The notes beneath the pieces were generated by a model. The model saw only the letters and a list, made by a program, of their open reading frames with translations, did not search any database and was not told the origin of the DNA. From an uncultured Clostridia bacterium (lineage in GTDB: Bacteria; Bacillota; Clostridia; Christensenellales; Borkfalkiaceae), in the NCBI GenBank assembly GCA_944343275.1, contig CALVMH010000001.1:61433-125432 (forward strand): a stretch of DNA of 64,000 nt. The letters run 5' to 3'. Shown here piece by piece: positions 2,967 through 57,311 of this stretch (position 1 is its first letter; every line of letters starts with the position of its first letter). The translations under genes and the position numbers were made by a program.

Positions 2967-3487
2967 TGAATTACGCAGAGATCAAAAAGACGGATATTGC
3001 CAACGGAGAGGGGGTTCGCGTCTCCCTCTTCGTTTCCGGTTGCAGGCGGCATTGCAAGAACTGCTTCAATAAGGTGACGTGGGACTTCGCATACGGCAAG
3101 CCGTTTACCGAGGAGACGCAGCAGGAACTGCTTGCGGCGCTCGCGCCGTCGTATATTACGGGACTGACGCTGCTCGGCGGGGATCCGATGGAACCCGAAA
3201 ACCAGCGTGCGCTGCTGCCGTTCGTCAGAAAAGTGCGTGCCTGCCTGCCCGAAAAAACGATCTGGTGCTATACGGGTTATACCTACGCGGACGGCGGTAT
3301 CGAAGAGGAGCAGGCGAACTGCGAAGTCACAAAAGAGTTCATATCGCTGTTGGATGTGTTGGTGGACGGGCGGTTTATCGAGGAGTTAAAGGACATCCGC
3401 CTTGTGTTCCGTGGGTCCTCCAACCAGCGCGTGATCGATGTGAAACGCAGTTTAGAGAGCGGGAACATAGTACTATATCTAACATAG
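2966..3487 (+). CDS. nrdG: Anaerobic ribonucleotide reductase activase (radical SAM)
   Basis: A 173-residue radical SAM protein that installs the glycyl radical in NrdD using S-adenosylmethionine and a [4Fe-4S] cluster. The cluster motif is C26-x3-C30-x2-C33 (CRRHCKNC), and LLGGDPM is the usual SAM-contacting strand. Its ATG shares one base with the nrdD stop, so the two are translationally coupled. The last residues (NIVLYLT) and the TAG stop are encoded by an interspersed palindromic element at 3465-3490, so the natural C-terminus may have been altered by that element. An intrinsic terminator follows at 3496. Confidence 0.95.
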   Translation: MNYAEIKKTDIANGEGVRVSLFVSGCRRHCKNCFNKVTWDFAYGKPFTEETQQELLAALAPSYITGLTLLGGDPMEPENQRALLPFVRKVRACLPEKTIWCYTGYTYADGGIEEEQANCEVTKEFISLLDVLVDGRFIEELKDIRLVFRGSSNQRVIDVKRSLESGNIVLYLT

Positions 3488-3490
3488 TAT
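3465..3490 (+). repeat. Interspersed palindromic element, copy 1
   Basis: Half-sites CATAGT, ACTATA, centre TCTAA, CATAGT then AT, read on the + strand. It is one of six related copies in the window. It encodes the end of nrdG and its TAG stop (3485-3487). Confidence 0.75.
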
Positions 3491-3495
3491 CATCC

Positions 3496-3520
3496 ATGCG
3501 GGAAATTTTCCCGCATTTTT
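3496..3520 (+). terminator. Intrinsic terminator of nrdDG
   Basis: ATGCGGGAAA pairs with TTTCCCGCAT, followed by a T run to 3520, eight bases after the nrdG stop. Confidence 0.85.
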
Positions 3521-3532
3521 CATGCCGCATGT

Positions 3533-3561
3533 TTGACGGTTGCACGCGAATGCGGTATAAT
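3533..3561 (+). promoter_or_regulatory. Sigma-A promoter of the M29 aminopeptidase gene
   Basis: TTGACG (3533-3538), 17 bp, TATAAT (3556-3561), 33 bp upstream of the start codon. Confidence 0.8.
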
Positions 3562-3594
3562 AATAGGGAACGATCGAAAAATTCGGAGGATATC

Positions 3595-4821
3595 ATGAAT
3601 AAATTGCAGTTAAAGCGGTATGCAAAATTGCTTGCAAAGACGGGGCTCAACGTCAAGCGCGGGCAGTGGGTCATCGTCAACGCGGGGCTCGATCAGCCGG
3701 AGTTTGTCGAGTGGGTCGTGGAGGAACTCTATCGTGCGGGCGCCGGAAAGGTGACGGTGGAGTGGTCGCATCAGCCGCTGACGAAACTCAAATATAAATA
3801 TGAAAAGGAGGGCGTGCTCTCCGCCGTTCCGCAGTGGGAAGAGGAACGCTGGAAATTGTACGTCAAAGAGCTTCCCTCCATGCTGCATATCATTTCGGAG
3901 GATCCGGACGGGCTTGCGGGTGTCGATCAGGAGAAGATGCGTGCCGTCACCGTCGGCAGGATGAAGATCGTCAAGCCGTATCGGGACGAGATGGAAAATA
4001 AATACCCTTGGTGCATTGCCGCCGTTCCCGGGAAAGCGTGGGCAAAGAAGGTGTTCCCCGGTTTGCAGGTCAACCGTGCGGTCGAGGCGCTGTGGGACGC
4101 CATCTTAAAAGCGTCCCGTGCGGACGGAGCAGACCCCGTGCGCGAGTGGGCGCGTCACAACGATGAACTTGCCAAGCGGTGTGACTACCTCAACCGTCTC
4201 GGTCTTGTTTCGCTCGAATACAAGGCGTCCAACGGAACCGACCTGCGCGTGGGGCTGCTGCCCGATGCCGACTTCATGGGCGGGGGCGAGAGCGATCTGA
4301 AAGGGCGCTATTATAATCCCAATATTCCCTCCGAGGAGATATTCACCACGCCGCGCGCGGGGGATGCGGAAGGCATCGTCTATGCCACCAAACCGCTCTC
4401 CTATCAGGGGCAGCTCATCGAGAACTTCTCCGTCCGCTTTGAAAACGGCAGGGTCATCGAGGTGAAGGCGGAGAAAAACCAGGCACTGCTCGAAAAGATG
4501 GTTTCGATGGACGAGGGCGCCGCGATGCTCGGCGAATGCGCGCTCATTGCCTACGACTCCCCTATCAACAACCAGGGCATCCTGTTCTATAACACCCTCT
4601 TTGATGAGAACGCGAGCTGCCATCTTGCGCTCGGACGGGGCTTTGGGAACTGTGTGCGCGGTTATGAAACGATGACCAACGAGCAGCTCAAAGAACACGG
4701 CATCAACGACAGTATGATCCACGTCGATTTCATGATCGGCAGCAAGGACCTCTCTATCACGGGTGTGACGGCAAAGGGCGAACGCGTCGCCATCTTCAAA
4801 GATGGCAATTGGGCATTTTGA
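3595..4821 (+). CDS. M29-family metallo-aminopeptidase
   Basis: A 408-residue cytoplasmic aminopeptidase of the thermophilic M29 family (AmpS/PepS/AmpT type), which removes N-terminal residues from peptides using two metal ions. Start ATG 3595 lies behind CGGAGGA. The metal-ligand pattern known for the family is visible: Glu in IPSEEIF (about 248), Glu in LGECAL (314), His in SCHLALG (343), and His and Asp in IHVDFMIGS (376, 378). It has its own promoter and ends 37 bp before the metallochaperone-like GTPase, so the three following genes may form one transcript. Length and domain order are normal. Confidence 0.93.
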   Translation: MNKLQLKRYAKLLAKTGLNVKRGQWVIVNAGLDQPEFVEWVVEELYRAGAGKVTVEWSHQPLTKLKYKYEKEGVLSAVPQWEEERWKLYVKELPSMLHIISEDPDGLAGVDQEKMRAVTVGRMKIVKPYRDEMENKYPWCIAAVPGKAWAKKVFPGLQVNRAVEALWDAILKASRADGADPVREWARHNDELAKRCDYLNRLGLVSLEYKASNGTDLRVGLLPDADFMGGGESDLKGRYYNPNIPSEEIFTTPRAGDAEGIVYATKPLSYQGQLIENFSVRFENGRVIEVKAEKNQALLEKMVSMDEGAAMLGECALIAYDSPINNQGILFYNTLFDENASCHLALGRGFGNCVRGYETMTNEQLKEHGINDSMIHVDFMIGSKDLSITGVTAKGERVAIFKDGNWAF

Positions 4822-4858
4822 CAAGCCCCATAAAGGGTATCTATCAGTCGAGGCAGGT

Positions 4859-5899
4859 ATGATCAAGATCGATATTTTTTCAGGCTTTTTGGGGGCGGGC
4901 AAGACGACGCTCATCAAAAAGCTCATCCGCGAAGTGTACAAGGGCGAACAGATCGTTCTCATTGAAAATGAATTCGGCGAGATCGGCGTGGACGGCGGAT
5001 TTTTGCAGGATGCAGGGATCCGCATCACCGAGATGAATTCGGGCTGCATCTGCTGCACGTTGGTGGGTGACTTTGCAAAGGCACTCAAAGTGGTTGCGGA
5101 ACAGTATTCGCCCGAACGCATCGTGATCGAGCCTTCCGGCGTCGGAAAGCTGTCCGACGTCATCCGCGCCGTACAGAGCGCGGGCGTAGAGGGGGCGCAG
5201 CTCAACGCCTTCTGCACCGTCGTGGATGCCAATAAGTGCAGGATGTATCTTAAAAATTTCGGCGAGTTTTTCCTCGATCAGGTGGAGAATGCGGGCTGCA
5301 TCGTGCTTTCGCATACGGGGAATGCCGCAAAGGTCGCAGAGGCGGTCGCGCTGCTCAAAGAACATACTGCGGCGACCATCGTCACGACCGATTGGAACAT
5401 GCTCTCCGGGAAGGAACTGCTTGCCGCCATCGAGCGAAAAGATACGCTGGAGGCGGAGCTCAAAAAGCTCGCCGAGGAGGCGCACGAACACGGGCACTGC
5501 CATCATCACGAACATGAGCATGAAGGCTGCCATCATCACGATCACGAGGGCGAATGTCATCACCACGAACATGAACACGGCGAGTGCTGCCATCACAACC
5601 ATGAACATTGCGAAGGGCATCACCACGCCGATGAAGTGTTCACGAGCTGGGGTACGGAGACGGGCAAGGTCTTTACGAAAGAGGTGCTCGACGGGATACT
5701 TTCGGCACTTGCGTCGGGGGAATACGGTCAGATCCTGCGCGCCAAGGGGATCGTGGACGGCGGGAAGGAATGGCTGTATTTCGACTATGTCCCCGACGAA
5801 CCGGACATCCGCACGGGTGCGCCTTGTGTGACGGGCAGACTGTGCGTCATCGGCTGCAAGCTTGACGAAAAGAAACTTCAAGCGCTCTTTTTGGGGTGA
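4859..5899 (+). CDS. COG0523 (CobW/ZNG-type) GTPase with His-rich metal-binding insert
   Basis: A 346-residue G3E GTPase. Start ATG 4859 follows GAGGCAGGT; an upstream in-frame ATG at 4802 lies inside the preceding gene and is rejected. Walker A is GFLGAGKTT (9-17), and the family metal site CxCC is at 63-66 (GCICC). Residues 209-256 form a striking cluster of His, Glu, Asp and Cys, as in zinc-delivering COG0523 members. The usual NKxD guanine motif reads SHTG, a degenerate form. A role in zinc or cobalt handling is inferred from family and composition. The next gene is a paralogous GTPase starting three bases after the stop. Confidence 0.9.
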   Translation: MIKIDIFSGFLGAGKTTLIKKLIREVYKGEQIVLIENEFGEIGVDGGFLQDAGIRITEMNSGCICCTLVGDFAKALKVVAEQYSPERIVIEPSGVGKLSDVIRAVQSAGVEGAQLNAFCTVVDANKCRMYLKNFGEFFLDQVENAGCIVLSHTGNAAKVAEAVALLKEHTAATIVTTDWNMLSGKELLAAIERKDTLEAELKKLAEEAHEHGHCHHHEHEHEGCHHHDHEGECHHHEHEHGECCHHNHEHCEGHHHADEVFTSWGTETGKVFTKEVLDGILSALASGEYGQILRAKGIVDGGKEWLYFDYVPDEPDIRTGAPCVTGRLCVIGCKLDEKKLQALFLG

Positions 5900-5902
5900 G
5901 AT

Positions 5903-6847: not shown

Positions 6848-6856
6848 AATTGATAT

Positions 6857-6888: not shown

Positions 6889-6896
6889 ATTCACAC

Positions 6897-13125: not shown

Positions 13126-13151
13126 ACATAGTATTATGTCAGACATATTAT
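13126..13151 (+). repeat. Interspersed palindromic element, copy 2
   Basis: Half-sites CATAGT, ATTATG, centre TCAGA, CATATT then AT, read on the + strand, 12 bp after the flavoprotein stop. It lies upstream of the aroH-cmk promoter. Confidence 0.75.
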
Positions 13152-32546: not shown

Positions 32547-34373
32547 ATGCAATTTTATTTTAACCCACTCGACAAAGCCTGCAAGAGCCGCATGGGCGCC
32601 GTTCCGTGCGGCTGCCGTGTGACCTTTCGTCTGTTTTGGAACGGCGGCGGTGAAATGCCGCACGACCTCGATGCGCGTTTTGTTTTCTGGCAGGACGGCA
32701 AGGAACGCACACCGCTTTCCATGAACAGGACGGCAGACGGATTTTTCATTACGCTCCGTTTTCACGAAACAGGTCTGTTCTTCTATTATTTTCGTATCGG
32801 TGATGAATTTTTCGGCAGAGGAAGCCTCCGGAACGGGATATTTGTTCCGCAGGCGAGCCTTGCCGCATGGCAGCTCACCGTCTTTGCAAAGGAGTATCAT
32901 ACCCCGGATTGGATGAAGGGCGGCGTGATGTATCAGATCTTTCCGGACCGCTTTTACAAGGCGGGGGACTTTCCTATCCGGGAGGACAAAGTGCTGCGCG
33001 ATGATTGGGGCGGCATTCCGTCTTATCGGCCGAACGGAGAGGGAAAGGTCCTCAACAATGATTTTTTCGGCGGAAACCTTGCCGGGATCATCGAAAAATT
33101 GGACTATCTTTCCGCACTCGGTGTGACCGTTCTCTATCTCAATCCAATTTTCGAGGCATATTCCAACCATCGTTACGATACGGGCGATTATATGAAGATC
33201 GACAGCCTGCTCGGAACGGAAGAGCATCTGCGGAAATTAACTGCGGAAGCAGGCAAGCGCGGGATACGCATTCTCCTCGATGCGGTGCTCAACCATACCG
33301 GATCGGACAGCCGCTATTTCAACAAATATGCGACCTATGACAGCGTCGGCGCCTATCAGTCGGTCACGTCACCATATTTTGAGTGGTATCATTTCAGTAA
33401 GTTCCCGCATGTTTATGACAGCTGGTGGGGGATCGACACACTGCCCGCCGTGAACGAACGCTCTGCATCCTATCAGGACTTTATTTTTGGCGAGGACGGC
33501 GTTCTCAGGCATTGGCTGGCGTGCGGCATCGGCGGCTATCGGTTGGATGTTGCCGATGAGCTTCCCGATTTCTTTCTCGAAAAGCTGCGCATGACCGTGA
33601 AGAGCGCGAGCAGCGACGCGGTCATCATCGGGGAAGTGTGGGAGGACGCCTCCAACAAGATCGCATACAGCGAGCGCAGACGCTACCTGCAGGGAGCCGA
33701 GCTGGACAGCGTGATGAACTATCCGCTGAAAGACGCGATCATCGGTTATGTGCAGACGGGAAAGACGTCGCAGCTGCGGGAGACGTTGTTCATGCTGATG
33801 GACAACTATCCGAAAGAGACGATCGATGTGCTCATGAATATTCTCGGCACACACGATACGCAGCGAATCCTCACTGTTTTTGGCGGAAAACAATGCGCCA
33901 ATAAGGATGAGATGGCGGTCACGTTCCTGACCGAGCGCGAAAAGGCAGCGGCAAAACGCAAGGTTATGATGGCAGCGGTGCTGCAATTTACGCTTCCCGG
34001 CGTTCCCTGCATCTACTATGGGGACGAAAATGCCATGGAGGGCTATCAGGATCCGTTCTGCCGTCGCTGCTTTGATTGGCTGCACACGGACGAAGAATTG
34101 CTTGCATTTTATCAAAAGCTCGGTGCGCTCCGAAAGCGGTTTTCCGATGCATTTTATGACGGAGAATATGACGAAGTGTTTGCCGACGACGGCTGCCTTG
34201 TCTATATGCGCCGCGCCGCGCGCGGAAATGTCTATGTATGGGTGAATAATTCCCATGAGGAATATACCATTCGCGTAAACGGGACTTTTTACGAACATTT
34301 ATCGGGAACGCGGTTTACGGATCGGCGGAAATGCGAGGCAAAATCCTTCGGAATTTTCACAAAAATCAAATAG
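32547..34373 (+). CDS. GH13 alpha-glycosidase (neopullulanase/cyclomaltodextrinase-like)
   Basis: 608 residues, no signal peptide, so cytoplasmic. An N-terminal beta domain (1-115) precedes the barrel that begins WMKGGVMYQIFPDRFY. GH13 regions: DAVLNHTG, GYRLDVADELPD (nucleophile Asp), IIGEVWED (acid/base Glu) and LGTHDTQR (third Asp). The N-domain plus barrel layout fits GH13_20 neopullulanase/maltogenic types that trim maltodextrins. The TAG stop (34371-34373) is the first three bases of an interspersed palindromic element. Confidence 0.9.
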   Translation: MQFYFNPLDKACKSRMGAVPCGCRVTFRLFWNGGGEMPHDLDARFVFWQDGKERTPLSMNRTADGFFITLRFHETGLFFYYFRIGDEFFGRGSLRNGIFVPQASLAAWQLTVFAKEYHTPDWMKGGVMYQIFPDRFYKAGDFPIREDKVLRDDWGGIPSYRPNGEGKVLNNDFFGGNLAGIIEKLDYLSALGVTVLYLNPIFEAYSNHRYDTGDYMKIDSLLGTEEHLRKLTAEAGKRGIRILLDAVLNHTGSDSRYFNKYATYDSVGAYQSVTSPYFEWYHFSKFPHVYDSWWGIDTLPAVNERSASYQDFIFGEDGVLRHWLACGIGGYRLDVADELPDFFLEKLRMTVKSASSDAVIIGEVWEDASNKIAYSERRRYLQGAELDSVMNYPLKDAIIGYVQTGKTSQLRETLFMLMDNYPKETIDVLMNILGTHDTQRILTVFGGKQCANKDEMAVTFLTEREKAAAKRKVMMAAVLQFTLPGVPCIYYGDENAMEGYQDPFCRRCFDWLHTDEELLAFYQKLGALRKRFSDAFYDGEYDEVFADDGCLVYMRRAARGNVYVWVNNSHEEYTIRVNGTFYEHLSGTRFTDRRKCEAKSFGIFTKIK

Positions 34374-34390
34374 TATGTCAGACATAGTAT
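34371..34390 (+). repeat. Interspersed palindromic element, copy 3
   Basis: TAGTATGTCAGACATAGTAT; it carries the stop of the GH13 gene. The first half-site is shortened compared with other copies, so its orientation (+) is the least certain of the six. Confidence 0.65.
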
Positions 34391-34414
34391 TTTCATGAAA
34401 GGTCGGTATACGTC

Positions 34415-34444
34415 AAAAGACGGCGGGACAACGTCGTCTTTTTC
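34415..34444 (+). terminator. Intrinsic terminator after the GH13 gene
   Basis: AAAAGACG pairs with CGTCTTTT, then more T. Confidence 0.75.
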
Positions 34445-34568
34445 TCATTATTTTTTTGCGTGATCGATGGCGTGCCATCAAAAAACGTATCTCAGCGGAA
34501 AGTTCAAAAAAGATATTGAATGGGTATTTGGATGTAATATCTGTTGTTTTGGATGCATTTTGTGCAAT
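34445..34568. other. AT-rich intergenic DNA without recognisable gene
   Basis: Part of the 415-bp gap 34374-34788. It is AT-rich compared with its neighbours and has short open frames without ribosome sites. I see no RNA gene. The useful structure in the gap is in the two candidate recombination sites listed separately. Confidence 0.5.
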
Positions 34569-34600
34569 ACTATTCGTAAAAGCTGCATTTTGCGAATAGT
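34569..34600. other. Candidate dif-like recombination site 1
   Basis: ACTATTCGTAAAA (34569-34581), six bases GCTGCA, then TTTTGCGAATAGT (34588-34600). The arms match 12 of 13. Trimmed to 11-6-11 (34571-34598) this is the geometry of Xer dif sites. It lies 189 bp upstream of a tyrosine recombinase gene start. The sequence does not match the standard dif consensus closely, so the cognate enzyme is inferred from proximity. Confidence 0.55.
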
Positions 34601-34740
34601 TATATCACTACCCCTTGCATCATTTTCGCCGCCGCAATGGTTTTTTTGAGTGGTTTTTTTCGGCGTAGCATCGTGCGCTGCTTGTCGGGTAACCCTCGCT
34701 GCACATGCCCCATTTTATTTTTTGTGTTTTTCCCCTATGA

Positions 34741-34770
34741 ACTATTCGTAAAATTGACTTTTGGCAATTT
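34741..34770. other. Candidate recombinase site 2 overlapping the promoter
   Basis: The left arm ACTATTCGTAAAA (34741-34753) is identical to site 1. The six-base centre is TTGACT and the right arm TTTGGCAATTT is degenerate (7 of 11 against site 1). The centre is exactly the -35 hexamer of the recombinase promoter, suggesting autoregulation. Confidence 0.5.
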
Positions 34771-34782
34771 GCATGCTATACT
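34754..34782 (+). promoter_or_regulatory. Promoter of the tyrosine recombinase gene (leaderless)
   Basis: TTGACT (34754-34759), 17 bp, TATACT (34777-34782), then six bases and ATG 34789. The predicted +1 is the A of the start codon. Confidence 0.7.
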
Positions 34783-34788
34783 GATGTT

Positions 34789-35850
34789 ATGAAGAAATTT
34801 GGCGACGATTATTATCAGGAACGCAATTTCAAGAACCTTGACAGGATCGATTCCCTGCTCGACGAGCTTCCCCCATTCTGCGAGGATTTTTTGCGCGGGA
34901 TCGAAACGCGGACGAGCGTGCTGACGCGCCTGAATTATGTCTACGATCTGCGCATCTTTTTTGATTTCCTTGCGCGGAAAAAGTATCGCGGCAAGCCGGT
35001 CGGCGAGATCACGCTCAGCGATCTGGAACAGGTAACGGATACCGATATTGAAATTTTTCTGAGTTACCTCTCCAACTATCGTTATGCCGACAAGCGTCTT
35101 TCGTGCGATGAGCGCGCCAAGGCGCGCAAACTTTCCACCGTCCGCTCCATGTTCAAGTATTTTTTCAACAAGGGGCTGATCGAGGTCAATCAGACGGCAA
35201 AGGTCGCAACGCCGAAATTGCACGAAAAAGAGATCGTCCGTCTGGAAGGCAACGAGGTCTCCTCCCTTCTGGATACGGCAGAGTACGGTGACGGACTGTC
35301 TCCGCACGCAAGCGGTTACCATGAAAAGACGAAGGTACGCGACAGTGCGATCTTGACGCTCTTTTTGGGAACAGGCATCCGTATTTCCGAACTTGTCGGG
35401 CTCAATAACGAGAGCATTGACTTTACCAATCATTCCTTTGTCGTGACGCGCAAGGGCGGAAACAAGGCGATCCTGTATTTTTCCGAAGAAGTCGGCGATG
35501 CGCTCGGCGCTTATCTTGCGCAAAAGGAAAACGACCCGCGCATTCCGCCGGAGGAACATGCCCTCTTTCTCTCCCTGCAATACAAACGGATTTCCGTGCG
35601 GGCGGTGGAAAATCTGGTCAAAAAGTATGCAAAGATCGTCACACCGCTCAAAAAAATCACGCCGCATAAACTGCGTTCCACTTATGGCACGGCGCTCTAC
35701 CGCGAGACAGGCGACATTTACATCGTTGCCGACGTGCTCGGACACCGCGATGTGAATACAACACGGAAGCATTATGCCGCCATCACGGAAGACCACCGCC
35801 GTTCCGTTGCGGAGGCGGTCAGACTGCATAAGCCGGAGGACGATGCGTGA
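34789..35850 (+). CDS. Tyrosine recombinase (XerC/XerD family)
   Basis: 353 residues, all catalytic residues present: Arg198 (GTGIRISELVGL), Lys222 (RKGGNK), His293 and Arg296 (TPHKLRSTYGT), His319 (LGHRD) and nucleophile Tyr329 (RKHYAAI). The N-terminal 110 residues form the SAM-like core-binding domain. There is no Shine-Dalgarno, and the -10 element is six bases from ATG, so the mRNA is probably leaderless. It lies beside two candidate sites and overlaps hflX by four bases, which indicates a resident housekeeping gene rather than a prophage integrase. It could be the chromosome-dimer resolvase of this genome; that is inference. Confidence 0.92.
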   Translation: MKKFGDDYYQERNFKNLDRIDSLLDELPPFCEDFLRGIETRTSVLTRLNYVYDLRIFFDFLARKKYRGKPVGEITLSDLEQVTDTDIEIFLSYLSNYRYADKRLSCDERAKARKLSTVRSMFKYFFNKGLIEVNQTAKVATPKLHEKEIVRLEGNEVSSLLDTAEYGDGLSPHASGYHEKTKVRDSAILTLFLGTGIRISELVGLNNESIDFTNHSFVVTRKGGNKAILYFSEEVGDALGAYLAQKENDPRIPPEEHALFLSLQYKRISVRAVENLVKKYAKIVTPLKKITPHKLRSTYGTALYRETGDIYIVADVLGHRDVNTTRKHYAAITEDHRRSVAEAVRLHKPEDDA

Positions 35851-37058
35851 ACGCAGAAAATGTCTATATCATCCATCCGTATGCGCGCGGCGCGGAAGAC
35901 GTTCTGCAGGAGGAAGCCGTTGCGCTGATCGAAAGCGCGGGTGCGCGTTATGCGGGCACGAGCCGTGTCCGTGTGCGCGAGATCGATCCTGCCACCTATC
36001 TCGGCGCAGGGAAGATCGCGGAACTTGCCGCCCTGCTTGCCGGGCTGGATGTCACCGTACTGTTCAACGGCGAGCTCTCCCCTGCGCAGACGGTCAACCT
36101 GTCCGAAGCGCTCGGCGGAAAAAAGGTCATCGACAGGACGACGCTCATCCTTGATATTTTTGCATTGCGTGCCGAAAGCAGCGAGGGAAAATTGCAGGTA
36201 GAGCTTGCACAGCTTCGCTATCTTTATCCGCGGCTCAAAGGCAAGGGCGGCGCCCTTTCCCGTCTTGGCGGCGGGATCGGCACGCGCGGACCGGGAGAAA
36301 CACAGCTGGAGACGGACAGGCGTCACATTCGTTCCAGGATGCGTTCTCTGGAAGAAAAACTTGCCGCGGCAAAAAAGCGGCGCGGACTGCAAACGTCGCG
36401 CAGAAAAAAAGACGGCGTGCGCACGGTCGCGCTCGTCGGCTATACGAATACGGGAAAATCCACCCTTCTGAACGCCTTGACAGGGGCAGATGTCCTGACA
36501 AAAGACGCCCTGTTTGCGACGCTCGATCCGACTTCCCGCAAACTTACCATCGACGGCATGGATTTTCTGCTGACGGATACCGTCGGTTTTTTGCGCGATC
36601 TGCCCCATCATCTCATTGAAGCATTTCGTTCCACGCTGGAAAGCGCGCTCACATGCGATCTTGCGCTCATTGTATGCGACGCGGGAGGCGATTACGAAAT
36701 GCAGCGCAATACCACGCTCGAAACCCTGCGCGGGATGGACTTTTCCGCGCCCACCATTCTTGTGATGAACAAATGCGATACCGTTCCCGCGGGAGTGCGC
36801 CTCCCGCGGGATGCGGTCTGTGTTTCCTCAAAGTGCGGGCAGGGGCTGGATGTTCTGAAACAAACCATTTTTGACGCCCTCGAAGAGCGGTTCGTCGCCG
36901 TGCGGCTGTATGTACCTTATCCCGCTGCGGCGAAATATGCCGCGCTCAGACCGCTCGTTACGGAGCGCAGCGTGCGCTATGATGACGGCGGAGCGCACAT
37001 CGAGGCGGTCATTCCCAGGGAACATGCCGCAAAATTCGAAGACTTTCCGAAAGAATAA
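35847..37058 (+). CDS. hflX: Ribosome-associated GTPase HflX
   Basis: 403 residues starting at GTG 35847, which overlaps the recombinase stop (GTGA). HflX splits or rescues stalled 70S ribosomes. The N-terminal HflX domain (YLGAGKIAELAALL ... FNGELSPAQ, RTTLILDIFA) leads to the glycine-rich linker GGGIGTRGPGETQLETDRR and the GTPase domain: G1 GYTNTGKSTLL, G3 DTVGF and G4 NKCD. All motifs are intact. Co-transcribed with the recombinase. Confidence 0.95.
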   Translation: MNAENVYIIHPYARGAEDVLQEEAVALIESAGARYAGTSRVRVREIDPATYLGAGKIAELAALLAGLDVTVLFNGELSPAQTVNLSEALGGKKVIDRTTLILDIFALRAESSEGKLQVELAQLRYLYPRLKGKGGALSRLGGGIGTRGPGETQLETDRRHIRSRMRSLEEKLAAAKKRRGLQTSRRKKDGVRTVALVGYTNTGKSTLLNALTGADVLTKDALFATLDPTSRKLTIDGMDFLLTDTVGFLRDLPHHLIEAFRSTLESALTCDLALIVCDAGGDYEMQRNTTLETLRGMDFSAPTILVMNKCDTVPAGVRLPRDAVCVSSKCGQGLDVLKQTIFDALEERFVAVRLYVPYPAAAKYAALRPLVTERSVRYDDGGAHIEAVIPREHAAKFEDFPKE

Positions 37059-37067
37059 GGGGGACGC

Positions 37068-37271
37068 TCAGCGCGTCCCCTTCTTTCTGTCGCGTTCATA
37101 TTCCGCAGGATCCGCATACACTTTCTCGATGCGGATGGAAGCAAATTCTTTGATGTCGAGGCATTTCCCGCAATTGTCGCAGATCTTGTTCGGATCGAGG
37201 TCACATACCTCGCATTCGAGGCAGCCGTCGCACTCCTTTTCTTCATCAAGAACACACATCTTTTTTTCCAT
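37068..37271 (-). CDS. Small Cys-rich protein, function unknown
   Basis: 67 residues from ATG 37271. Eight or nine Cys are concentrated in residues 6-37 in CxxC spacing (CDGCLECEVCDL, CDNCGKC), suggesting zinc or iron-sulfur binding, followed by a charged tail (YERDRKKGTR). I recognise this as a recurrent small clostridial protein but know no function. The start is supported by a promoter whose TATACT ends six bases before the ATG; an upstream in-frame TTG would precede that promoter. It is divergent from lexA. Confidence 0.75.
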   Translation of the reverse strand: MEKKMCVLDEEKECDGCLECEVCDLDPNKICDNCGKCLDIKEFASIRIEKVYADPAEYERDRKKGTR

Positions 37272-37277
37272 AGCGTA

Positions 37278-37306
37278 AGTATATCCCTTCCGAGGGAAAA
37301 AAGCAA
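37278..37306 (-). promoter_or_regulatory. Promoter of the small Cys-rich gene (leaderless)
   Basis: On the - strand: TTGCTT (37306-37301), 17 bp, TATACT (37283-37278), six bases, ATG. Confidence 0.65.
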
Positions 37307-37336
37307 CCGCTTTTCGCAAATTTCTGAAAATTATTT

Positions 37337-37386
37337 AGAACAAATGTTTGCAAACTGTTGCAAACCGTTCCGTTCTGTGCTATACT
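37337..37386 (+). promoter_or_regulatory. lexA promoter with SOS-type box
   Basis: AGAACAAATGTTTG (37337-37350) resembles the Firmicutes LexA box (GAAC...GTTY). TTGCAA (37358-37363), 17 bp and TATACT (37381-37386) form the promoter. The box lies eight bases upstream of the -35, and a further GCAAAC repeat overlaps the -35. Confidence 0.7.
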
Positions 37387-37409
37387 AATCATATAAGGAG
37401 TGATATATC

Positions 37410-38009
37410 ATGCTGGACAAACGCAAACTTGATGTTGTACTTGCCTTTATCGACCGCTACACGGATGAGAACGGATTCCCCCCCACCGTGCGCGATATCT
37501 GTGCGGAGCTCAACATCAAATCGACGGCAACGGCGTATGATTACGTCAACCGCCTCAAAGCGATGGGGCTTCTGCAAAAGACGGCGGGAAAAAAGCGTGC
37601 CGTTGCGCTTGCCAATACGGGGACGGTGCGCGTTCCGCTCATCGGTACCGTTACGGCAGGTACCCCCATTCTGGCAACGGAAAATTATGAAGGATATTAT
37701 ACGCTCCCTACCGCGGAATTTTCGGGGGAAGATCTGTTTCTGCTCACGGTCAAAGGAAGCAGCATGATCGATGCGGGAATCTATGACGGCGACAAAATCG
37801 TCGTCCGAAAACAGGAGACGGCAAATAACGGCGATATTGTTGTTGCCATGTTTGACGACGGCATTGAAGAAGGCGCGACGGTCAAGCGATTTTATCGCAA
37901 AAACGGAAAGTTTATTTTGCATCCGGAAAACAAGGAACTCTCCGATTATGTGTTGGACGAAGTGACCATTTTGGGCAAAGTCGTGGGACTGCTGCGCTCT
38001 TTCCGTTGA
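37410..38009 (+). CDS. lexA: SOS transcriptional repressor LexA
   Basis: 199 residues. An N-terminal winged helix (VLAFIDRYTDENGFPPTVRDICAELNIKST) binds DNA; the C-terminal S24 peptidase domain self-cleaves in response to RecA. The cleavage bond is Ala83-Gly84 (TVTAGTP), with catalytic Ser118 (KGSSM) and Lys159 (GATVKRF). AAGGAG precedes ATG 37410. An SOS-type box ahead of its promoter indicates autoregulation. A terminator follows that also closes rluB from the other side. Confidence 0.96.
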   Translation: MLDKRKLDVVLAFIDRYTDENGFPPTVRDICAELNIKSTATAYDYVNRLKAMGLLQKTAGKKRAVALANTGTVRVPLIGTVTAGTPILATENYEGYYTLPTAEFSGEDLFLLTVKGSSMIDAGIYDGDKIVVRKQETANNGDIVVAMFDDGIEEGATVKRFYRKNGKFILHPENKELSDYVLDEVTILGKVVGLLRSFR

Positions 38010-38024
38010 ATATAACCATCATTG

Positions 38025-38052
38025 AAAAGGACCCCCTCGGGGGTCCTTTTTA
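38025..38052. terminator. Bidirectional terminator between lexA and rluB
   Basis: AAAAGGACCCCC pairs with GGGGGTCCTTTT. It marks the point where the dominant coding strand switches from + to -. Confidence 0.9.
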
Positions 38053-44326: not shown

Positions 44327-44351
44327 ATACTATGTCACATATATTACTATG
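44327..44351 (-). repeat. Interspersed palindromic element, copy 4
   Basis: Read on the - strand: CATAGT, then AATATATG, TGA, CATAGT, ATTGC. It lies 16 bp downstream of the carboxypeptidase stop, in the lysA upstream region. Confidence 0.65.
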
Positions 44352-49687: not shown

Positions 49688-50467
49688 TTAGAGAACTTTT
49701 TGCTGTTCGAGCGCGCTTTGCGCCGCCTTCAGAAAGGCGTCTTCGCCGACGGGGTCGCCGTCTTTTTCAAGATAGACGACGTACTCCACATTCTTCCGCC
49801 TGACAACGGGCGCAGGGACAATGTCCCGCGGCGCAAGTGCGAGCGGCAGACAGAAGCGGTAAAACGCGGCAAGCAGGTCGCGGTGAAAGCGAACGGGCAG
49901 GATACCGCCCTTTCCGAGCCCCCTCCCTTCACATTCAAATTGCGGCTTAAAGAGAACGAAGGCGCGTCCGCCGCTGTCGAGCAGTGCGGCAACGGCGGGC
50001 AGAACGAGCCGTAAAGAAATAAAACTCAGATCGGACACCACGCCGTCCGGCTGCTGCGGAAAATGTTCCCGCGTTAAAAAGCGTGCGTTGGTATGATCCA
50101 TCACCGTGACGCGCGCGTCAACGGCAAGTTTTTGGGCAAGCTGCGCTTCACCGACATCGACTGCGTAGACGTGCTTTGCGCCGCGAGCAAGCAGAACTTC
50201 GGTAAAGCCGCCCGTGCTTGCGCCGAGATCCGCAAACACGCATCCCTCCACGCACGCTCCGAACCCGTCGAGACCGCGTGCAAGTTTATAGCCTCCGCGC
50301 GAAACAAATCCTGCGTCCTCCTTCAGAAAGGTGAACGCATCGTCTGCGGTGACGCTGTCCGAGGGGGAAAGCGGAATTCCGCCGCGCAGGACGAGCCCTT
50401 TCATAAGAGCATCTTTTGCGCGGGTACGGGACCCGAACTTCCCGGCGAAAAAGCTATCCGCGCGCAT
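49688..50467 (-). CDS. tlyA: TlyA-family rRNA 2'-O-methyltransferase
   Basis: 259 residues. An S4-like N-terminus (RTRAKDALMKGLVLRGG) leads to the FtsJ-type methyltransferase: SRGGYKLARGLDGFG, FADLGASTGGFTEVLL (SAM site), AVDVGEAQLAQKL and SDLSFISLRLVLP. The Lys-Asp-Lys type residues of rRNA 2'-O-methylation are at the expected places. It overlaps the dxs stop. Confidence 0.93.
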   Translation of the reverse strand: MRADSFFAGKFGSRTRAKDALMKGLVLRGGIPLSPSDSVTADDAFTFLKEDAGFVSRGGYKLARGLDGFGACVEGCVFADLGASTGGFTEVLLARGAKHVYAVDVGEAQLAQKLAVDARVTVMDHTNARFLTREHFPQQPDGVVSDLSFISLRLVLPAVAALLDSGGRAFVLFKPQFECEGRGLGKGGILPVRFHRDLLAAFYRFCLPLALAPRDIVPAPVVRRKNVEYVVYLEKDGDPVGEDAFLKAAQSALEQQKVL

Positions 50468-52166
50468 GGCAATCCTCGATGTAATGCAGGATATCTTGCT
50501 CGTTCAGCCCGAATTCTGCCGCAAGTTCCCGCGTGGTCCCGTGCGGAAGGAACGCATCGGGATAGCCGAAGGAATGCAGGTTTCTGTCGGTATTGCGCAG
50601 AACGCGCCCCACGGCATCGCCCAATCCGCCCGTAAGAACATTATCTTCCAGCGTGATGACATATTTTTCTTTGCGCGAAAGCAGCATTTCCGCGTCAACA
50701 GGTTTTACGAACCGCGCATTCACGATGGTAAAATCGATATGACGTTCCATTGCGGCAGCCAATACGCGAAAGGCGAGTGAGATGCAGCGTTCCCCTGCCG
50801 CATAGATAACTATGTTAGACATAGTACTATGCAAAACCTCAAATTTTCCAAATTCAACATCGCCGCACGCCCCTCCCCGACCTTCTCTCGGATAGCGGAT
50901 GGCGAGCGGCTTGTCATAGGAGATGCTTTTGCGCAGCATGGCGCGGAATTCCGCAATGTTTTTCGGGACGGCAACGGTAAGACCGGGGATCGGAGAAAGA
51001 TAGGAAAGATCGAACACGCCCTGATGCGTTTCCCCGTCCGCCCCCGTGACGCCGGCGCGGTCAATGCAAAAGGTCACGGGCAGTCCCTGACCGCATACGT
51101 CATGGATGATCTCGTCGTATGCGCGCTGCAAAAATGTCGAATAGATCGCATAGTACGGACGCATCCCCTCTTCTGCAAGCGCCGCGGAGAGCACGCAGGC
51201 ATGCTCTTCGCATATCCCGACGTCAAAGGCGCGTTCGGGGAATTTTTCAAAGAACGGGCGCAGTCCGAGTGCATCCGTCATGGCTGCCGTCACTGCGACG
51301 ACGCGCTTATCCCGCTCCGCCATTGCCGTCAGCTCCTCGCCGAGTGCTGCGGAATATTCCGCCCCCCCGTTGCCTGCGGGCGACACGCCGTGCGTTAATT
51401 CGGGCGATTGTTCGCAGAACGCGTAACCCTGTCCTTTGCGCGTTGTCACATGCAGCAAAACGCTCTGTGTTTTCAGGACCTCTTTGGCGCGTTCGAGTGC
51501 CGGAAGCAGCTCCGTAAGGTCGTTTCCGTTATAAACGCCCATGTAGGCAAGCCCGTAACGCTCAAACAGCGCCACATCCTGTACGGGCGCCTCGCCCTCC
51601 TTGAGCTCTGTCAGAACCTCGTGCGTTCCGCCGACCGTGGGAGAAATGGACATCCCATTATCGTTGAGCACGATGAGCACGCGCGTGGAAAGGATCTTTA
51701 GGCTGTTGAGCGCTTCATAGACAAGTCCGTTGTTGAACGAGCCGTCTCCGACGAGCGCAACGACGGAAAAATCCTCATGATTTAGGTCGCGCGCCTTGGC
51801 GATACCGAGCGCGGCGGAGATGGCAGTTCCCGCGTGCCCTGTTTCATAGCAGTCATAGGAGCTTTCCTTGCGCTTCGGGAACCCGGACAGCCCGCCGCGG
51901 CATCTGAGCGTGGAAAAAGCCCCCGCCCTGCCCGAAAGCAGCTTATGCGCATAGCATTGATGCCCGACGTCAAAGATAAGTTTGTCACGCGGAAAGTCAA
52001 AAGCGCGGTGCAGCGCAACGGTCAGTTCCACGGCGCCGAGATTGGATGCAAGATGTCCGCCGCGCACGGAGACCGTGCGGAAGATCTCCTCCCGCAATGT
52101 TTCGCATAACTCCTTTAATTGGCAAAGGGAAGCCGATTTCAGCTCCCCGACAGTCACTTCTTTCAT
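50454..52166 (-). CDS. dxs: 1-deoxy-D-xylulose-5-phosphate synthase
   Basis: 570 residues from ATG 52166 (GGAG 11 bases upstream); GTG 52187, overlapping the ispA stop as GTGA, is an equal alternative. Thiamine-diphosphate enzyme making DXP, the first step of the MEP isoprenoid route that ends in IspH at 15 kb. Motifs: GGHLASNLGAVELTVALH, GDGSFNNGLVYEALN (ThDP site), and in the transketolase domain EEHACVLSAALA and FCIDRAGVTGADGETHQG. At about residues 445-453 an interspersed palindromic element encodes LHSTMSNIV, in a surface hairpin of the family, without breaking the frame. Confidence 0.96.
   Translation of the reverse strand: MKEVTVGELKSASLCQLKELCETLREEIFRTVSVRGGHLASNLGAVELTVALHRAFDFPRDKLIFDVGHQCYAHKLLSGRAGAFSTLRCRGGLSGFPKRKESSYDCYETGHAGTAISAALGIAKARDLNHEDFSVVALVGDGSFNNGLVYEALNSLKILSTRVLIVLNDNGMSISPTVGGTHEVLTELKEGEAPVQDVALFERYGLAYMGVYNGNDLTELLPALERAKEVLKTQSVLLHVTTRKGQGYAFCEQSPELTHGVSPAGNGGAEYSAALGEELTAMAERDKRVVAVTAAMTDALGLRPFFEKFPERAFDVGICEEHACVLSAALAEEGMRPYYAIYSTFLQRAYDEIIHDVCGQGLPVTFCIDRAGVTGADGETHQGVFDLSYLSPIPGLTVAVPKNIAEFRAMLRKSISYDKPLAIRYPREGRGGACGDVEFGKFEVLHSTMSNIVIYAAGERCISLAFRVLAAAMERHIDFTIVNARFVKPVDAEMLLSRKEKYVITLEDNVLTGGLGDAVGRVLRNTDRNLHSFGYPDAFLPHGTTRELAAEFGLNEQDILHYIEDCHARG
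50808..50832 (-). repeat. Interspersed palindromic element, copy 5 (inside dxs)
   Basis: Read on the - strand: GCATAGT, ACTATG, centre TCTAA, CATAGT. In frame in dxs as LHSTMSNIV. Confidence 0.75.
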
Positions 52167-52183
52167 ATCGATCGTTGCTCCGT

Positions 52184-53056
52184 TCACCTGTCCCGACAGC
52201 GCACGGAACGGACAAGTTCCGCCAAAAAGCCGGTATCCGCTCCCGACATCGTATGCAGGATGTCAAGACATGTGTGCGCGCTTGCGTCCGCGCGGCGACG
52301 GGCGCCTTGCAGCCCGTACACCCTGACGGCGGTCAGCTTGTCCTCCTGCGCATCTTTTCCGACGGTTTTTCCAAGCGCAGTACTGCTGCCCGTCGCATCG
52401 AGCAGGTCGTCTGTGATCTGAAACAACGCGCCAAGTTCGAGCCCGAAGGCTTCCGCCTCACGCTCGTAGTTTCCCGCAAGGATCGCCGCCATCCTGAGCG
52501 GAGCGGCAATCAGCCTCCCCGTCTTGTCGCGGTAGATTTCCGCAAGTTCGCGCTCTCCGCCCCCGCCGCCCGTACACAGCAGATCGAGCGACTGCCCTGC
52601 GACCATTCCCTCTGCTCCGGCAGCCTTTGAGAGCGCCTGCGCCGCGCGCAGATGCGCAGCACTTTTTCCCGCTTCTTGCAGCAACAGGTCGAAGGCGAGG
52701 GAGAGCAGCGCGTCGCCCGCAAGGATGGCATTCGCTTCCCCGAACGCCTTGTGGTTAGAAGGGCGTCCGCGGCGGAAATCGTCGTTGTCCATCGCGGGCA
52801 GATCGTCGTGGATCAGGGAATAGGTATGAATGCATTCGATCGCAAAGGCGAATGTCTCCTCCCCGACATAGGGTTTCCCGAATGCTTCGAGCGCCGCCAT
52901 GTAGAGAACGGGACGCACGCGCTTCCCACCGGACAGCAGGGAATAGCGCATGCTTTGCGTAAGGATATCCGGTGTAAAAACCATACCTGCACAGCGTTTT
53001 TGCAGATCGTCTTCAAAATGGTTACGATATTCTTCGTATTTGTCCGCGTAATTCAT
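52184..53056 (-). CDS. ispA: Farnesyl/geranyl diphosphate synthase
   Basis: 290 residues. A trans-polyprenyl synthase that condenses isopentenyl diphosphate units. The first Asp-rich motif is IHDDLPAMDNDDFRRG and the second is QITDDLLDATG; LSGGKRVRPVLYMAA binds substrate. The residues before the first Asp motif (ECIHTYSLIHDD) suit a C15 product, but chain length cannot be decided. ATG overlaps the folD stop. xseA and xseB, usually between folD/nusB and ispA, are absent. Confidence 0.94.
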   Translation of the reverse strand: MNYADKYEEYRNHFEDDLQKRCAGMVFTPDILTQSMRYSLLSGGKRVRPVLYMAALEAFGKPYVGEETFAFAIECIHTYSLIHDDLPAMDNDDFRRGRPSNHKAFGEANAILAGDALLSLAFDLLLQEAGKSAAHLRAAQALSKAAGAEGMVAGQSLDLLCTGGGGGERELAEIYRDKTGRLIAAPLRMAAILAGNYEREAEAFGLELGALFQITDDLLDATGSSTALGKTVGKDAQEDKLTAVRVYGLQGARRRADASAHTCLDILHTMSGADTGFLAELVRSVRCRDR

Positions 53057-54287: not shown

Positions 54288-54307
54288 ACGTTGTTTTCCT
54301 CATGCAA

Positions 54308-54337: not shown

Positions 54338-54349
54338 TTTTCCGATGTA

Positions 54350-54724
54350 TCAGGCGTTTGCCGCCTCTTCCCCCGCGGCGGCATTGTCCGCAGGAGCGCT
54401 CTTTTGTACGGGGAAGATGACGCTCGTGATATGAACGTCGACCTTGGCGATCTTGTACTTCGTCATCGACTCCACCATCTGCTTGATGGTCTGCTGGATA
54501 CGGAATGCAAGTTCCGGAACTTTATAGCCGTAATATGCAATGACGGAGATGTCGACAAAGACGCCTTCCTTTTCAAAACAGACCTTGATCCCCTTGTTTT
54601 TGGAGGGAACCAGCTCGATGCCTTCCGTCTCTTGCAGGCTCAGGACGACGATCCCGCTGACGATGTCTGCATTGTAAGTGATCTTCCCTTTTTGTCCGTT
54701 GGGATTATACTTGATGCTTGCCAT
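54350..54724 (-). CDS. Asp23/Gls24 family envelope-stress protein (YqhY-like)
   Basis: 124 residues. ITYNADIVSGIVVLSLQETEGI, VDISVIAYYGYKVPELAFRIQQTIKQMVESMTKYKIAKVDVHI is the Asp23 fold. In Firmicutes the gene lies between spoIIIAH and nusB, as here; the Bacillus homologue YqhY affects acetyl-CoA carboxylase/lipid control. AAGGAG precedes the ATG, and a promoter of TGGCAA, 17 bp, TATAAT (54776-54748 on -) lies upstream, with a weak -35. An Ala-rich tail ends the protein. Confidence 0.93.
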   Translation of the reverse strand: MASIKYNPNGQKGKITYNADIVSGIVVLSLQETEGIELVPSKNKGIKVCFEKEGVFVDISVIAYYGYKVPELAFRIQQTIKQMVESMTKYKIAKVDVHITSVIFPVQKSAPADNAAAGEEAANA

Positions 54725-54785
54725 AGCGAACTCCTTCTCGTAAGTACATTATAACACATCTTTTTCGGAATTGCCACTGTTTTTT

Positions 54786-55265
54786 TCAACTTTCCGCGTA
54801 AACGGGCATAATTATAATGTTTCCCTCGCGGATATTTTGTTCTACTTCGAGCGCATAGAAGATCTTGGTGACCATTTCGCTCGTCAGTTCGCTCGAATTG
54901 ACAAAGACGTTGATGTTATCGGAATCGCCGATGGCGACCGCCGCGTCGGAAAAGCCCATCGCCTTGATGATGGTTTCCATGACAAGTTCGTCTTCCATCG
55001 TTTCGACAAGTTCTTGTTTGCGCGCAAGCGCCGCCGCATATTCTTCGGAATCCTCCGCCGATGCGGAAATGATGCTGTCGAGCTGGACAAATTCTTCGCT
55101 GCGCGTCGTGTTCCTGTCGGCGCGGTATGTCGTGAAATAATTTGCCTCGACATCGGCACTGACATCCTGCCGGTTCGTTCCGGCAAGAACAAAGTTGCAC
55201 ACCGCAGTCACGGCAAGCAGCAGAACAAGCGTGGACATCAGAACGATCTTCTTCGTATTGGACAT
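54786..55265 (-). CDS. spoIIIAH: Stage III sporulation protein AH
   Basis: 159 residues. One N-terminal membrane helix (IVLMSTLVLLLAVTAVCNFVLA), then the ring-forming YscJ-like domain (VMETIIKAMGFSDAAVAIGDSDNINVFVNSSELT). In Bacillus it pairs with SpoIIQ to form the channel between mother cell and forespore. AAGGAGATG lies ahead of the ATG. It is the last gene of the eight-gene spoIIIA operon. Confidence 0.93.
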   Translation of the reverse strand: MSNTKKIVLMSTLVLLLAVTAVCNFVLAGTNRQDVSADVEANYFTTYRADRNTTRSEEFVQLDSIISASAEDSEEYAAALARKQELVETMEDELVMETIIKAMGFSDAAVAIGDSDNINVFVNSSELTSEMVTKIFYALEVEQNIREGNIIIMPVYAES

Positions 55266-55294
55266 ATTGCATCTCCTTCAAATTTTGTTTCCGT

Positions 55295-55672
55295 TTATTT
55301 GTCCGAAGGGCAGACGAGTACCCTGTTTTCGGCGATCCCGAGCGCACGGGCGACGATCTGCGTCAGCCGCAGGCGAACGAGAATGCCGTCCTCGCCGTCA
55401 AACAGGACGACGGCGCCCGTTGCCGTGTTCCCCTCTTCCGAAATGAGCACGGTGACTTCCCCCGCTCCGTCCACTTCGGAAAGAAGCGCTGAAAGCCGCG
55501 CTTCGCGGTCGGTGGGAACGTAGCCCGAAGCATCCTGCGCCTGCCTGTTTCCGAACACGAGCCAGCAGGTGAGCAGCAACAACAGTGCGGCGCCGGCAAG
55601 AAGCAGAATGCGTGCAGTCTTATTTTCCCGCACGGCGGCGAGCGTTTGTTTTATGTGACTTCCGCCTCGCAT
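55295..55672 (-). CDS. spoIIIAG: Stage III sporulation protein AG
   Basis: 125 residues, shorter than Bacillus SpoIIIAG. A membrane helix (ARILLLAGAALLLLLTCWLVFG) precedes the periplasmic-type ring domain (RLSALLSEVDGAGEVTVLISEEGN ... LTQIVARALGIAENRVLVCPS). The long insert that forms the beta-triangle in Bacillus is missing. GGAG eight bases upstream sets the start, inside spoIIIAF. Confidence 0.88.
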   Translation of the reverse strand: MRGGSHIKQTLAAVRENKTARILLLAGAALLLLLTCWLVFGNRQAQDASGYVPTDREARLSALLSEVDGAGEVTVLISEEGNTATGAVVLFDGEDGILVRLRLTQIVARALGIAENRVLVCPSDK

Positions 55673-56106
55673 CCGTACCGCTCCTCCAGCACCCGAACGA
55701 CTTCTTCGCTAATATGTATATGCTCGTCCTGCCCGATTATTCCGAAATCCGTAATGTTTACGGAAATTTTTTTACAGGGGAAGCCGGCTTCCGCGCTGCG
55801 CGATACGTCTACCTGCGCGCAAATCCCGTATGTTTCCTGCAAATATCTGCCGATCGCCGCTTCGTCGGAGGCGGCAAGTTCCTCTGCGCAGAAGGCAAGA
55901 TAGTCCTTGTCCTCCGGGAGGTCCGCTGCGGAAAGCTCTGTACCGTTCCCCGTGAACAGGGTGGCAAGCGGTGCGAGCATGACAAGCAGAATGACGGGCT
56001 TTGTCACCCCTTTCAGAAATTTTCCGACTTTTCCGCCCGGCGCGACGATCGTGATGAGCGCGGTCAGAAGGACGATCCCGGCGATGCTCAGAATATAGGC
56101 TTTCAT
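55651..56106 (-). CDS. spoIIIAF: Stage III sporulation protein AF
   Basis: 151 residues from ATG 56106, overlapping the spoIIIAE stop as ATGA. Two N-terminal membrane helices (YILSIAGIVLLTALITIV, FLKGVTKPVILLVMLAPLATLF) and a C-terminal ring-like domain (SVNITDFGIIGQDEHIHISEEVVRVLEERYG). It is part of the SpoIIIA secretion-like machinery. It overlaps spoIIIAG by 22 bases. Confidence 0.88.
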   Translation of the reverse strand: MKAYILSIAGIVLLTALITIVAPGGKVGKFLKGVTKPVILLVMLAPLATLFTGNGTELSAADLPEDKDYLAFCAEELAASDEAAIGRYLQETYGICAQVDVSRSAEAGFPCKKISVNITDFGIIGQDEHIHISEEVVRVLEERYGCEAEVT

Positions 56107-57311
56107 GCGGTGATCACCCCCGAAGAACAGACAAGCAGGACAAGCGTCAGGAAATAGAGAAACGCAACGCATAGCAGCCCTGCAAGGAAGAAACCGCTGT
56201 CCGCCGCAAGGCGCGACAGGAAGGAAGATATCTTTCCGCCGGCAGGTTCGGTCGCAGCGGCGCACAGCCTCAGGAAGAGCTGAAATGCGGCAATGAGCAG
56301 AACGGGGCGCAGAAGCGCGCCGAAGAGAAGAAAGACGGCGAAAGAGCCAAGTGCGTTTTTGATGAGCGCGCTGCCCGCAAGAACGAGGTCGATCCCGCCC
56401 GATAAAAAGCCGCCGACGATCGGCACGGAACCCGAGACAAGATATTTGATGGCGCGAAGCGAGATCCCGTCGTATTGCGCGGAAGCAAGCCCCTGCACCG
56501 TAAGAAAGAGTGCAAGAATCCCGAGCGTCAGTCCGATGAGCCATTTGGCAATACCTTTGAAGAAGTCGCCGAGTTTTTCCGTGCGAACATCCGGAGAAAG
56601 ATTTCCCACGAATGCAAGCACGATAACGATGACGCAGACGGGCAGAACGACGGATGTGAACAGTTCACAGACCGCGCCCGACAAAAAGGCGACCGCGGGG
56701 CGGAATACGCCCGCGGAAACGGCGCCCCCGCTTGCCGCCATCAAAGTGAGCAGGATCGGATAGATGACCTCCATCTGGCGTCGCATGCCTTCCATGGCGG
56801 AAAATCCCGTTTGAAGCACTCCGATCAGCGCCGCAAGCACCACCGCACCGACGGAAAGATATGCCGCAAAGTTTATTATGTCTGACATAGTACTCTGCAA
56901 AAATCCGTTTTTTGCAGAATTTAAGATGCCGCAGAGCAACGCGGCAGCCACGACGACGGCAAAAGCAGGAAGCATCGTCCGCCCTTCTTCAAACACGAGC
57001 GCGAGCGCAGACTGCCACAGAGAGCCGTAGTCTAGCGCGAGATCGCCGTCAATGAGCCCGGACAAGATTTCCGCGACATCTCGCCCTTCCCACCCTTCCA
57101 GCGAATCAAGATACGCCTGCAGCTCCTGTGTGTCGAGCTCTGCAAGCAGTTTTTCCGCCTCTTCTGCGAGCTCCCGCAGCGCCGCCTCCTCTTCGGGCGA
57201 ATAGGCAGCGGCAGGCGCCGCAAACGTAGCGCCCGTGCACAGCAGCGCGCATATCAAGAGTAGCAAGATTGCCGCCGGGAAAAACGGACGGCGCCGTCGG
57301 AATACTTTCAT
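56103..57311 (-). CDS. spoIIIAE: Stage III sporulation protein AE
   Basis: 402 residues. A signal peptide (FFPAAILLLLICALLCTG), an acidic helical domain (38-110), then about eight membrane helices with family blocks GIAKWLIGLTLGILALFLTVQGL and VPIVGGFLSGGIDLVLAGSALIKNALG. It is the integral-membrane core of the SpoIIIA channel. At residues 138-147 an interspersed palindromic element encodes LQSTMSDII in frame. ATG overlaps the spoIIIAD stop. Confidence 0.93.
   Translation of the reverse strand: MKVFRRRRPFFPAAILLLLICALLCTGATFAAPAAAYSPEEEAALRELAEEAEKLLAELDTQELQAYLDSLEGWEGRDVAEILSGLIDGDLALDYGSLWQSALALVFEEGRTMLPAFAVVVAAALLCGILNSAKNGFLQSTMSDIINFAAYLSVGAVVLAALIGVLQTGFSAMEGMRRQMEVIYPILLTLMAASGGAVSAGVFRPAVAFLSGAVCELFTSVVLPVCVIVIVLAFVGNLSPDVRTEKLGDFFKGIAKWLIGLTLGILALFLTVQGLASAQYDGISLRAIKYLVSGSVPIVGGFLSGGIDLVLAGSALIKNALGSFAVFLLFGALLRPVLLIAAFQLFLRLCAAATEPAGGKISSFLSRLAADSGFFLAGLLCVAFLYFLTLVLLVCSSGVITA
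56875..56898 (-). repeat. Interspersed palindromic element, copy 6 (inside spoIIIAE)
   Basis: Read on the - strand: GCAGAGT, ACTATG, centre TCAGA, CATAAT. In frame in spoIIIAE as LQSTMSDII; with copy 5 it shares TTTTGCA upstream. Confidence 0.75.

Follow-up and report, generated by a model that had tools for sequence, protein, structure and literature searches.

Polar repeats around the replication terminus of Borkfalkiaceae and related gut Clostridia suggest a new kind of one-way replication gate

The window analyzed here is a stretch of 64,000 nucleotides (positions 61,433 to 125,432 of contig CALVMH010000001.1) from an uncultured Clostridia bacterium of the family Borkfalkiaceae, order Christensenellales, and it carries six copies of a palindromic element, the subject of this study, on both sides of a putative replication terminus (Table 1). 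The GC skew switches sign within the window, its cumulative curve peaking at about 35.5-36 kb, and the genes switch from mostly plus to mostly minus strand at about 38 kb. This region encodes a tyrosine recombinase, for which the best NCBIfam model is XerS at 198.6 bits, below the 267-bit cut-off of that model. The recombinase gene is preceded by an inverted repeat, CTATTCGYAAAA-N6-TTTTRCGAATAG, in the same arrangement in four genomes of the genus including the present one, and a diverged dif-like repeat with arms ACACTTCGTAAAA occurs in another genus. A single recombinase adjoining its dif site is an arrangement described for XerS-difSL (PMC5357621). Based on the recombinase, the dif-like repeat and the switch of skew and gene strand, we take this region as dif and the terminus. 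The genes scpA and scpB also lie near the terminus, and a lone dif-type arm just ahead of the gene for the recombinase may serve self-regulation. The window additionally contains the spoIIIA operon and spoIVB, so that the host looks like a spore former.

Table 1. Copies of the element and neighboring features in the window
Feature	Position	Strand	Remarks
nrdG-like gene	2966-3487		3' end overlapped by polar copy 1
Polar copy 1	3465..3489	-	third half-site left (origin side); G000:C1:64903; terminator-like hairpin adjoins
Polar copy 2	13126..13150	-	third half-site and A/T tracts left; intergenic; L19.7 vs R-24.8
Terminus copy (third)	34371..34389		without clear third half-site; overlaps stop of alpha-amylase family gene; dif-like repeat lies about 180 bp away
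Dif-like inverted repeat CTATTCGTAAAA-GCTGCA-TTTTGCGAATAG	34570..34599		putative, from sequence arrangement
Lone dif-type arm	34742..34753	+	5' of recombinase gene; role putative
Tyrosine recombinase, 353 aa, XerS-like	34789..35850	+	terminus marker
Terminus interval	34000..38050		cumulative GC skew maximum and gene-strand change
Polar copy 4	44328..44351	+	third half-site right (origin side); R21.9 vs L-40.7; flanked by PLP decarboxylase gene (Orn/DAP/Arg family) and D,D-carboxypeptidase gene
Polar copy 5	50808..50832	+	third half-site right; within dxs (50454-52187, -)
Polar copy 6	56874..56898	+	third half-site right; within spoIIIAE (56103-57311, -)

An earlier note on this DNA, made from the sequence alone, had described six copies sharing the half-sites CATAGT and ACTATG, a five-base center TCWGA or TCTAA and a third half-site CATAGT. 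All six are present where the note placed them and the shared motif stands, but the description does not fit every copy: the one at 34371 lacks a clear third half-site, the one at 44327 is imperfect with the center TCACA, and what the copies have in common is a core palindrome of 19-21 bp, TAYTATGTC-W-GACATARTA. One flank of this core bears the third half-site (GTACTATG), followed by CAAAA and phased A/T tracts, and since the third half-site stands on one flank only, every copy so built has a direction. The consensus from 148 asymmetric sites reads TAYTATGTCWGACATAGTACTATGCAAAA, followed by A/T tracts at intervals of about 10 bp, with weaker tracts about as far from the core center on the opposite flank; as most of these loci were picked by a strict pattern, the core and third half-site are inflated in this consensus while the flanks are not. 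The A/T tracts are present also at copies within genes. The two overlapping palindromes do give the element a polarity, as had been claimed, and the phased flanks suggest that the DNA may be bent or wrapped. Measured against a 26-base consensus, the six copies have, in order, 2, 2, 5, 4, 4 and 4 mismatches. Elsewhere in the window no match has fewer than 9, and none with fewer than 8 occurs in three simulated sequences based on the dinucleotides of the window.

The element is far more abundant than chance would allow. The genome from which the window derives (1.98 Mb in 92 contigs) contains 19 sites with at most three mismatches to TACTATGTCNGACATAGTA as against none for a reversed-pattern control, and all 37 genomes of the genus carry the site, with 679 matches (about 18 per genome) versus 13 for the control. 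No earlier account of the site was found among the best matches in the open-licence literature. Many copies sit in short intergenic gaps and 35 of 125 pattern-selected copies lie within genes; these loci, whose counts are lower bounds among the matches listed, were chosen by the motif itself, so that the counts of gene overlap, skew agreement and spoIIIAE copies given here lean toward good sites.

The distribution of the sites is decidedly uneven. The spacing of about one copy per 10 kb in unrelated contexts, proposed in the earlier note, holds in the terminus zone only; all 19 sites of this genome fall on five of its 92 contigs, comprising 386 of 1,976 kb (20% of the genome), and dnaA lies on a separate contig (C26). 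Four of the five site-bearing contigs (C1, C8, parts of C2, C27) map onto a single 388-kb contig of genome G061, which itself holds 21 of the 34 sites of that 2.0-Mb genome (binomial p of about 7e-8), located between its 11-kb and 300-kb points. A comparable picture is seen in a second genus, represented by G231, where an 824-kb contig carries all seven sites between 549 and 772 kb, a span of 224 kb, and dnaA lies on a different contig. There the skew flips near 590 kb, the recombinase gene is at 592.4 kb and the polarity of the sites flips at 592 kb; three further sites with four mismatches stand outside this count, one of which (579,662) is weak and discordant. Between the innermost sites of clear polarity there are 30-37 kb in four genomes of the genus and 51 kb in G231. 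Each of the six terminus contigs has a copy lacking a clear third half-site 0.2-0.6 kb from the recombinase gene. Two of these terminus copies (G061:C1:109299 and G009:C4:41777) consist of two adjoining cores and do not form a polar site.

The check proposed in the earlier note, on relatives and on the distance from the skew switch, gave the decisive result, namely that the sites cluster around the terminus and that their direction flips there. In the window the third half-site lies, in order of the copies, left, left, on neither side, right, right and right. Across ten contigs from six genomes, 61 sites are clearly asymmetric, and in 58 of these the third half-site lies on the origin side, with a binomial p of about 3e-14 that overstates independence because orthologous sites recur among species. 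This test scored 69 of the 72 sites on these contigs, the other three being at stretch ends; outside the 61 are two ambiguous sites and six terminus copies, the latter set aside because they have no clear third half-site. The matrix used for polarity is not wholly independent of these sites since its source loci include at least one (L084) from G061. Sites occur on both sides of dif, with opposite directions in the two replichores. Local GC skew agrees with the direction in 111 of 125 pattern-selected sites. As genes mostly run with replication, transcription is a confounder; in nine of 91 cases the site runs against the genes beside it, and of these nine, six agree with the skew and three do not. 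Furthermore, in six cases from two loci, picked by eye, in which sites lie in or between head-on genes of a known replichore, all six follow replication and not transcription.

Several copies have also been retained within genes. A protein-only search for dxs in 61 genomes matched 35 of the 37 genomes of the genus and yielded 30 loci, in which 28 species have a recognizable site, as judged by eye, at the same codons. The dxs genes of G005 and G012 lack it and show substitutions there with no change of length. The minimum of synonymous variation along dxs coincides with the site (0.29 in a 12-codon window, as against an average of 0.83 for 383 columns), although one of the 30 rows in this analysis (G015) is a wrong open reading frame; the true dxs of G015, read separately, carries the site with four mismatches. 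The copy in spoIIIAE likewise keeps its codon position across 15 distinct sequences, mostly pattern-selected. The sharing of codons across species together with the synonymous minimum implies that the sites are ancient, stay where they are and are preserved at the DNA level. Judged from these patterns, selection is acting on the DNA itself inside the genes.

Among the named records listed, the strict pattern was matched in metagenome-assembled genomes of uncultured Clostridia, one Candidatus Gallimonas and one Candidatus Borkfalkia; the NCBI taxonomy places Borkfalkia within Christensenellales. A scan across the order took in 200 genomes. In the family itself the motif is present in all five genomes of a second genus, with 5-9 sites each, and in none of the single genome of a third. 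Among other families, all 12 genomes of f19 have 3-36 sites, nine of the 12 genomes of f32 have at least five, and single genomes of f20 and f30 have 15 and 19, respectively. Most remaining families have 0-2 sites, about the control level, and the few genomes with 3-7 sites in f10, f18 and f6 are not counted as support (in G053 of f18 the sites lie in AT-rich DNA, and this genome also gives two control hits). In G054 of f19 the polar arm has diverged to TATTCTATAAAA, and its loci (L232-L251) often show an extra ATAGT-like element about 30 bp beyond this arm. Individual loci display further arrangements. Arrays of four cores within about 130 bp, similarly ordered in two species, occur upstream of a dGTPase-like (dgt) gene (G064:C1:39394-39520 and G062:C1:61603-61729), and a further site pair follows a recG-like gene (G064:C1:121511-121582), the gene names being assigned by eye. 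A pair at 4936 and 6944 of locus L153 (G000:C19) flanks a nadD-yqeK-like gene, and G029, G015 and G013 also have pairs with a spacing of 2007-2008 bp. In the site-bearing zone (L148, G000:C8) a DUF4364 protein (2083-2607) is unusually conserved, with 82% to G061 and 69% to G231.

In light of these observations we propose that a protein binds the element, in a sequence-specific manner, as a polar site of the terminus region, and that the element most likely serves as Ter in a replication fork trap unrelated to both Tus-Ter and RTP-Ter, a reading to which we would assign about an even chance. The suggestion of the earlier note that the copies form a family of protein-binding sites is supported. 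In the RTP-Ter system each site combines a weak A and a strong B site, and a fork that reaches B first is blocked (PMC10331603), and Ter sites are oriented toward dif and stop forks that move away from it (PMC6549158). By analogy, the core would be bound strongly by a dimer and the third half-site more weakly by a further subunit or dimer. Forks coming from the origin would meet the weak side and pass, whereas a fork that has run past dif would meet the strong core first and presumably stop; the innermost polar sites would thereby confine fork fusion to about 30-50 kb around dif. The near-constant direction of the repeats relative to the terminus suggests a new kind of one-way replication gate. 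Tentatively, and at slightly short of even chances, it may be a third, independently evolved fork trap in Christensenellales, with a symmetric core and a polar arm kept across several families and read by a protein.

A number of observations weigh against this proposal. RTP (PF02334) is above the cut-off in none of 61 genomes, including the 37 of the genus (one sub-threshold match is in G039, from another family), Tus (PF05472) is in none of the 61, and no recurrent small DNA-binding gene was seen by eye among the 60 largest gene clusters of the site neighborhoods. Some species have at least 30 sites, beyond the needs of a simple trap. Enrichment in the terminus zone is strong, but the genomes are fragmented: 13 of the 34 sites of G061 lie off its terminus contig and are unplaced on the origin-terminus axis, 12 sites on G062:C1 and G064:C1 are likewise unplaced on that axis and did not enter the polarity test, and contig C19 of the present genome does not map onto the 388-kb contig of G061. 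Three of the 61 asymmetric sites are discordant, and polarity is weaker in G054, where 15 of 22 signed sites, or seven of nine with a clear margin, agree. At the terminus of G009 the skew shows no clear flip, and in G061 it is weak; in both genomes the terminus was placed from the recombinase and the strand of the genes. As to candidate binders, nothing ties LexA, ArgR, the DUF4364 protein or a cupin-HTH protein encoded on site-bearing contigs to the site. The recombinase is also an improbable binder: dif has 12-13 bp arms and a 6 bp spacer as opposed to the 1 bp spacer of the core, and from one genus to the other the dif arms have changed from ACTATTCG to ACACTTCG with no change in the polar motif.

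The main rival to the fork trap, which we consider rather unlikely yet worthy of serious attention, is that the site organizes the terminus domain or unloads SMC. As an organizer, its protein would mark the terminus zone and hold sister chromosomes together or tie them to the division machinery, in the manner of MatP-matS or ZapT; alternatively, it would strip SMC from DNA, with the polarity being read by the arriving SMC complex. The wide zone over which the many sites of G061 and G231 are spread, their frequent location within genes and the proximity of scpA and scpB to the terminus all speak for such a role. However, matS is a short palindrome that is not known to be polar, whereas the present sites are polar, and the change of dif arms between genera without a change in the motif speaks against the recombinase as the protein involved.

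The other readings fare less well. That the site guides a DNA translocase (FtsK/SpoIIIE), pointing to dif as do KOPS and SRS, would account for its direction and its enrichment toward the terminus, but at about 18 copies per genome it is too rare, and it is also too long and too palindromic, which makes this improbable. An ordinary transcription-factor regulon, in keeping with the palindromic core and the many copies in short intergenic gaps, is scarcely to be expected given the copies within dxs and spoIIIAE, the concentration at the terminus and the six head-on sites that follow replication. The earlier note had also considered an RNA 3' hairpin or the scars of a small mobile repeat. The palindrome and the terminator-like hairpin beside copy 1 would fit a hairpin or a scar, but isolated copies fold at just 0 to -5.6 kcal/mol and polarity is tied to replication even in the six head-on cases from two loci, while a mobile origin is at odds with the same codons being occupied in 28 of 30 dxs genes and with the two genes lacking the site showing no change in length. 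In a viral contig collection the strict pattern had no match and the bare core had three. We therefore give hairpin and scar almost no credence.

If the fork-trap interpretation is correct, this would be the first such system outside gammaproteobacteria and Bacillales, going by the survey in PMC6549158. Two fork-trap systems are described, unrelated to each other and found in narrow groups, with perhaps most bacteria having none (PMC6549158, PMC10331603), and RTP-related sequences are confined to a subgroup of Bacillales (Galli et al., PMC6549158). A polar terminus site across families of gut Clostridia would mean either that fork traps arise repeatedly or that there is a new polar mark of the terminus. 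The question of why bacteria keep fork traps thus becomes testable by comparison, and the site provides a defined bait for finding its protein.

Among known systems of the terminus, the translocase guides KOPS, SRS and AIMS are likewise polar and enriched toward the terminus, but are short skewed motifs in many copies, those named in PMC5357621 being octamers and heptamers, which is not what is seen here. ZapT of Caulobacter binds near the terminus, mostly within genes, as do many of the present copies, but no consensus motif is reported for it (PMC7188993). XerD is reported to strip SMC from DNA in B. subtilis (PMC12322038, citing earlier work), and its unloading sites are, similarly, terminus-region sites of a chromosome-organizing protein. 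The present motif differs from them in that it does not track the dif arms of the recombinase between genera. A half-site of the XerD kind would be expected to resemble a dif arm and to change with it. The target of MatP is also repeated in the terminus zone; matS is not known to be polar, unlike the sites examined here. It is 13 bp long, and 23 matS sites are reported in 800 kb (PMC3330122). Tus-Ter of enterobacteria likewise has polar sites scattered widely on either side of dif, but ter is described as non-palindromic (PMC6549158), in contrast to the palindromic core described here, and no Tus homolog was found. With respect to RTP-Ter of Bacillus subtilis, the present system differs in having no RTP homolog, more copies, phased A/T tracts and a terminus copy without a polar arm. 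Nevertheless, at the sequence level it shares with RTP-Ter two overlapping binding sites that are repeated on both sides of dif and point toward it, and the better conserved core faces dif, as does the strong B site, although its strength here is presumed.

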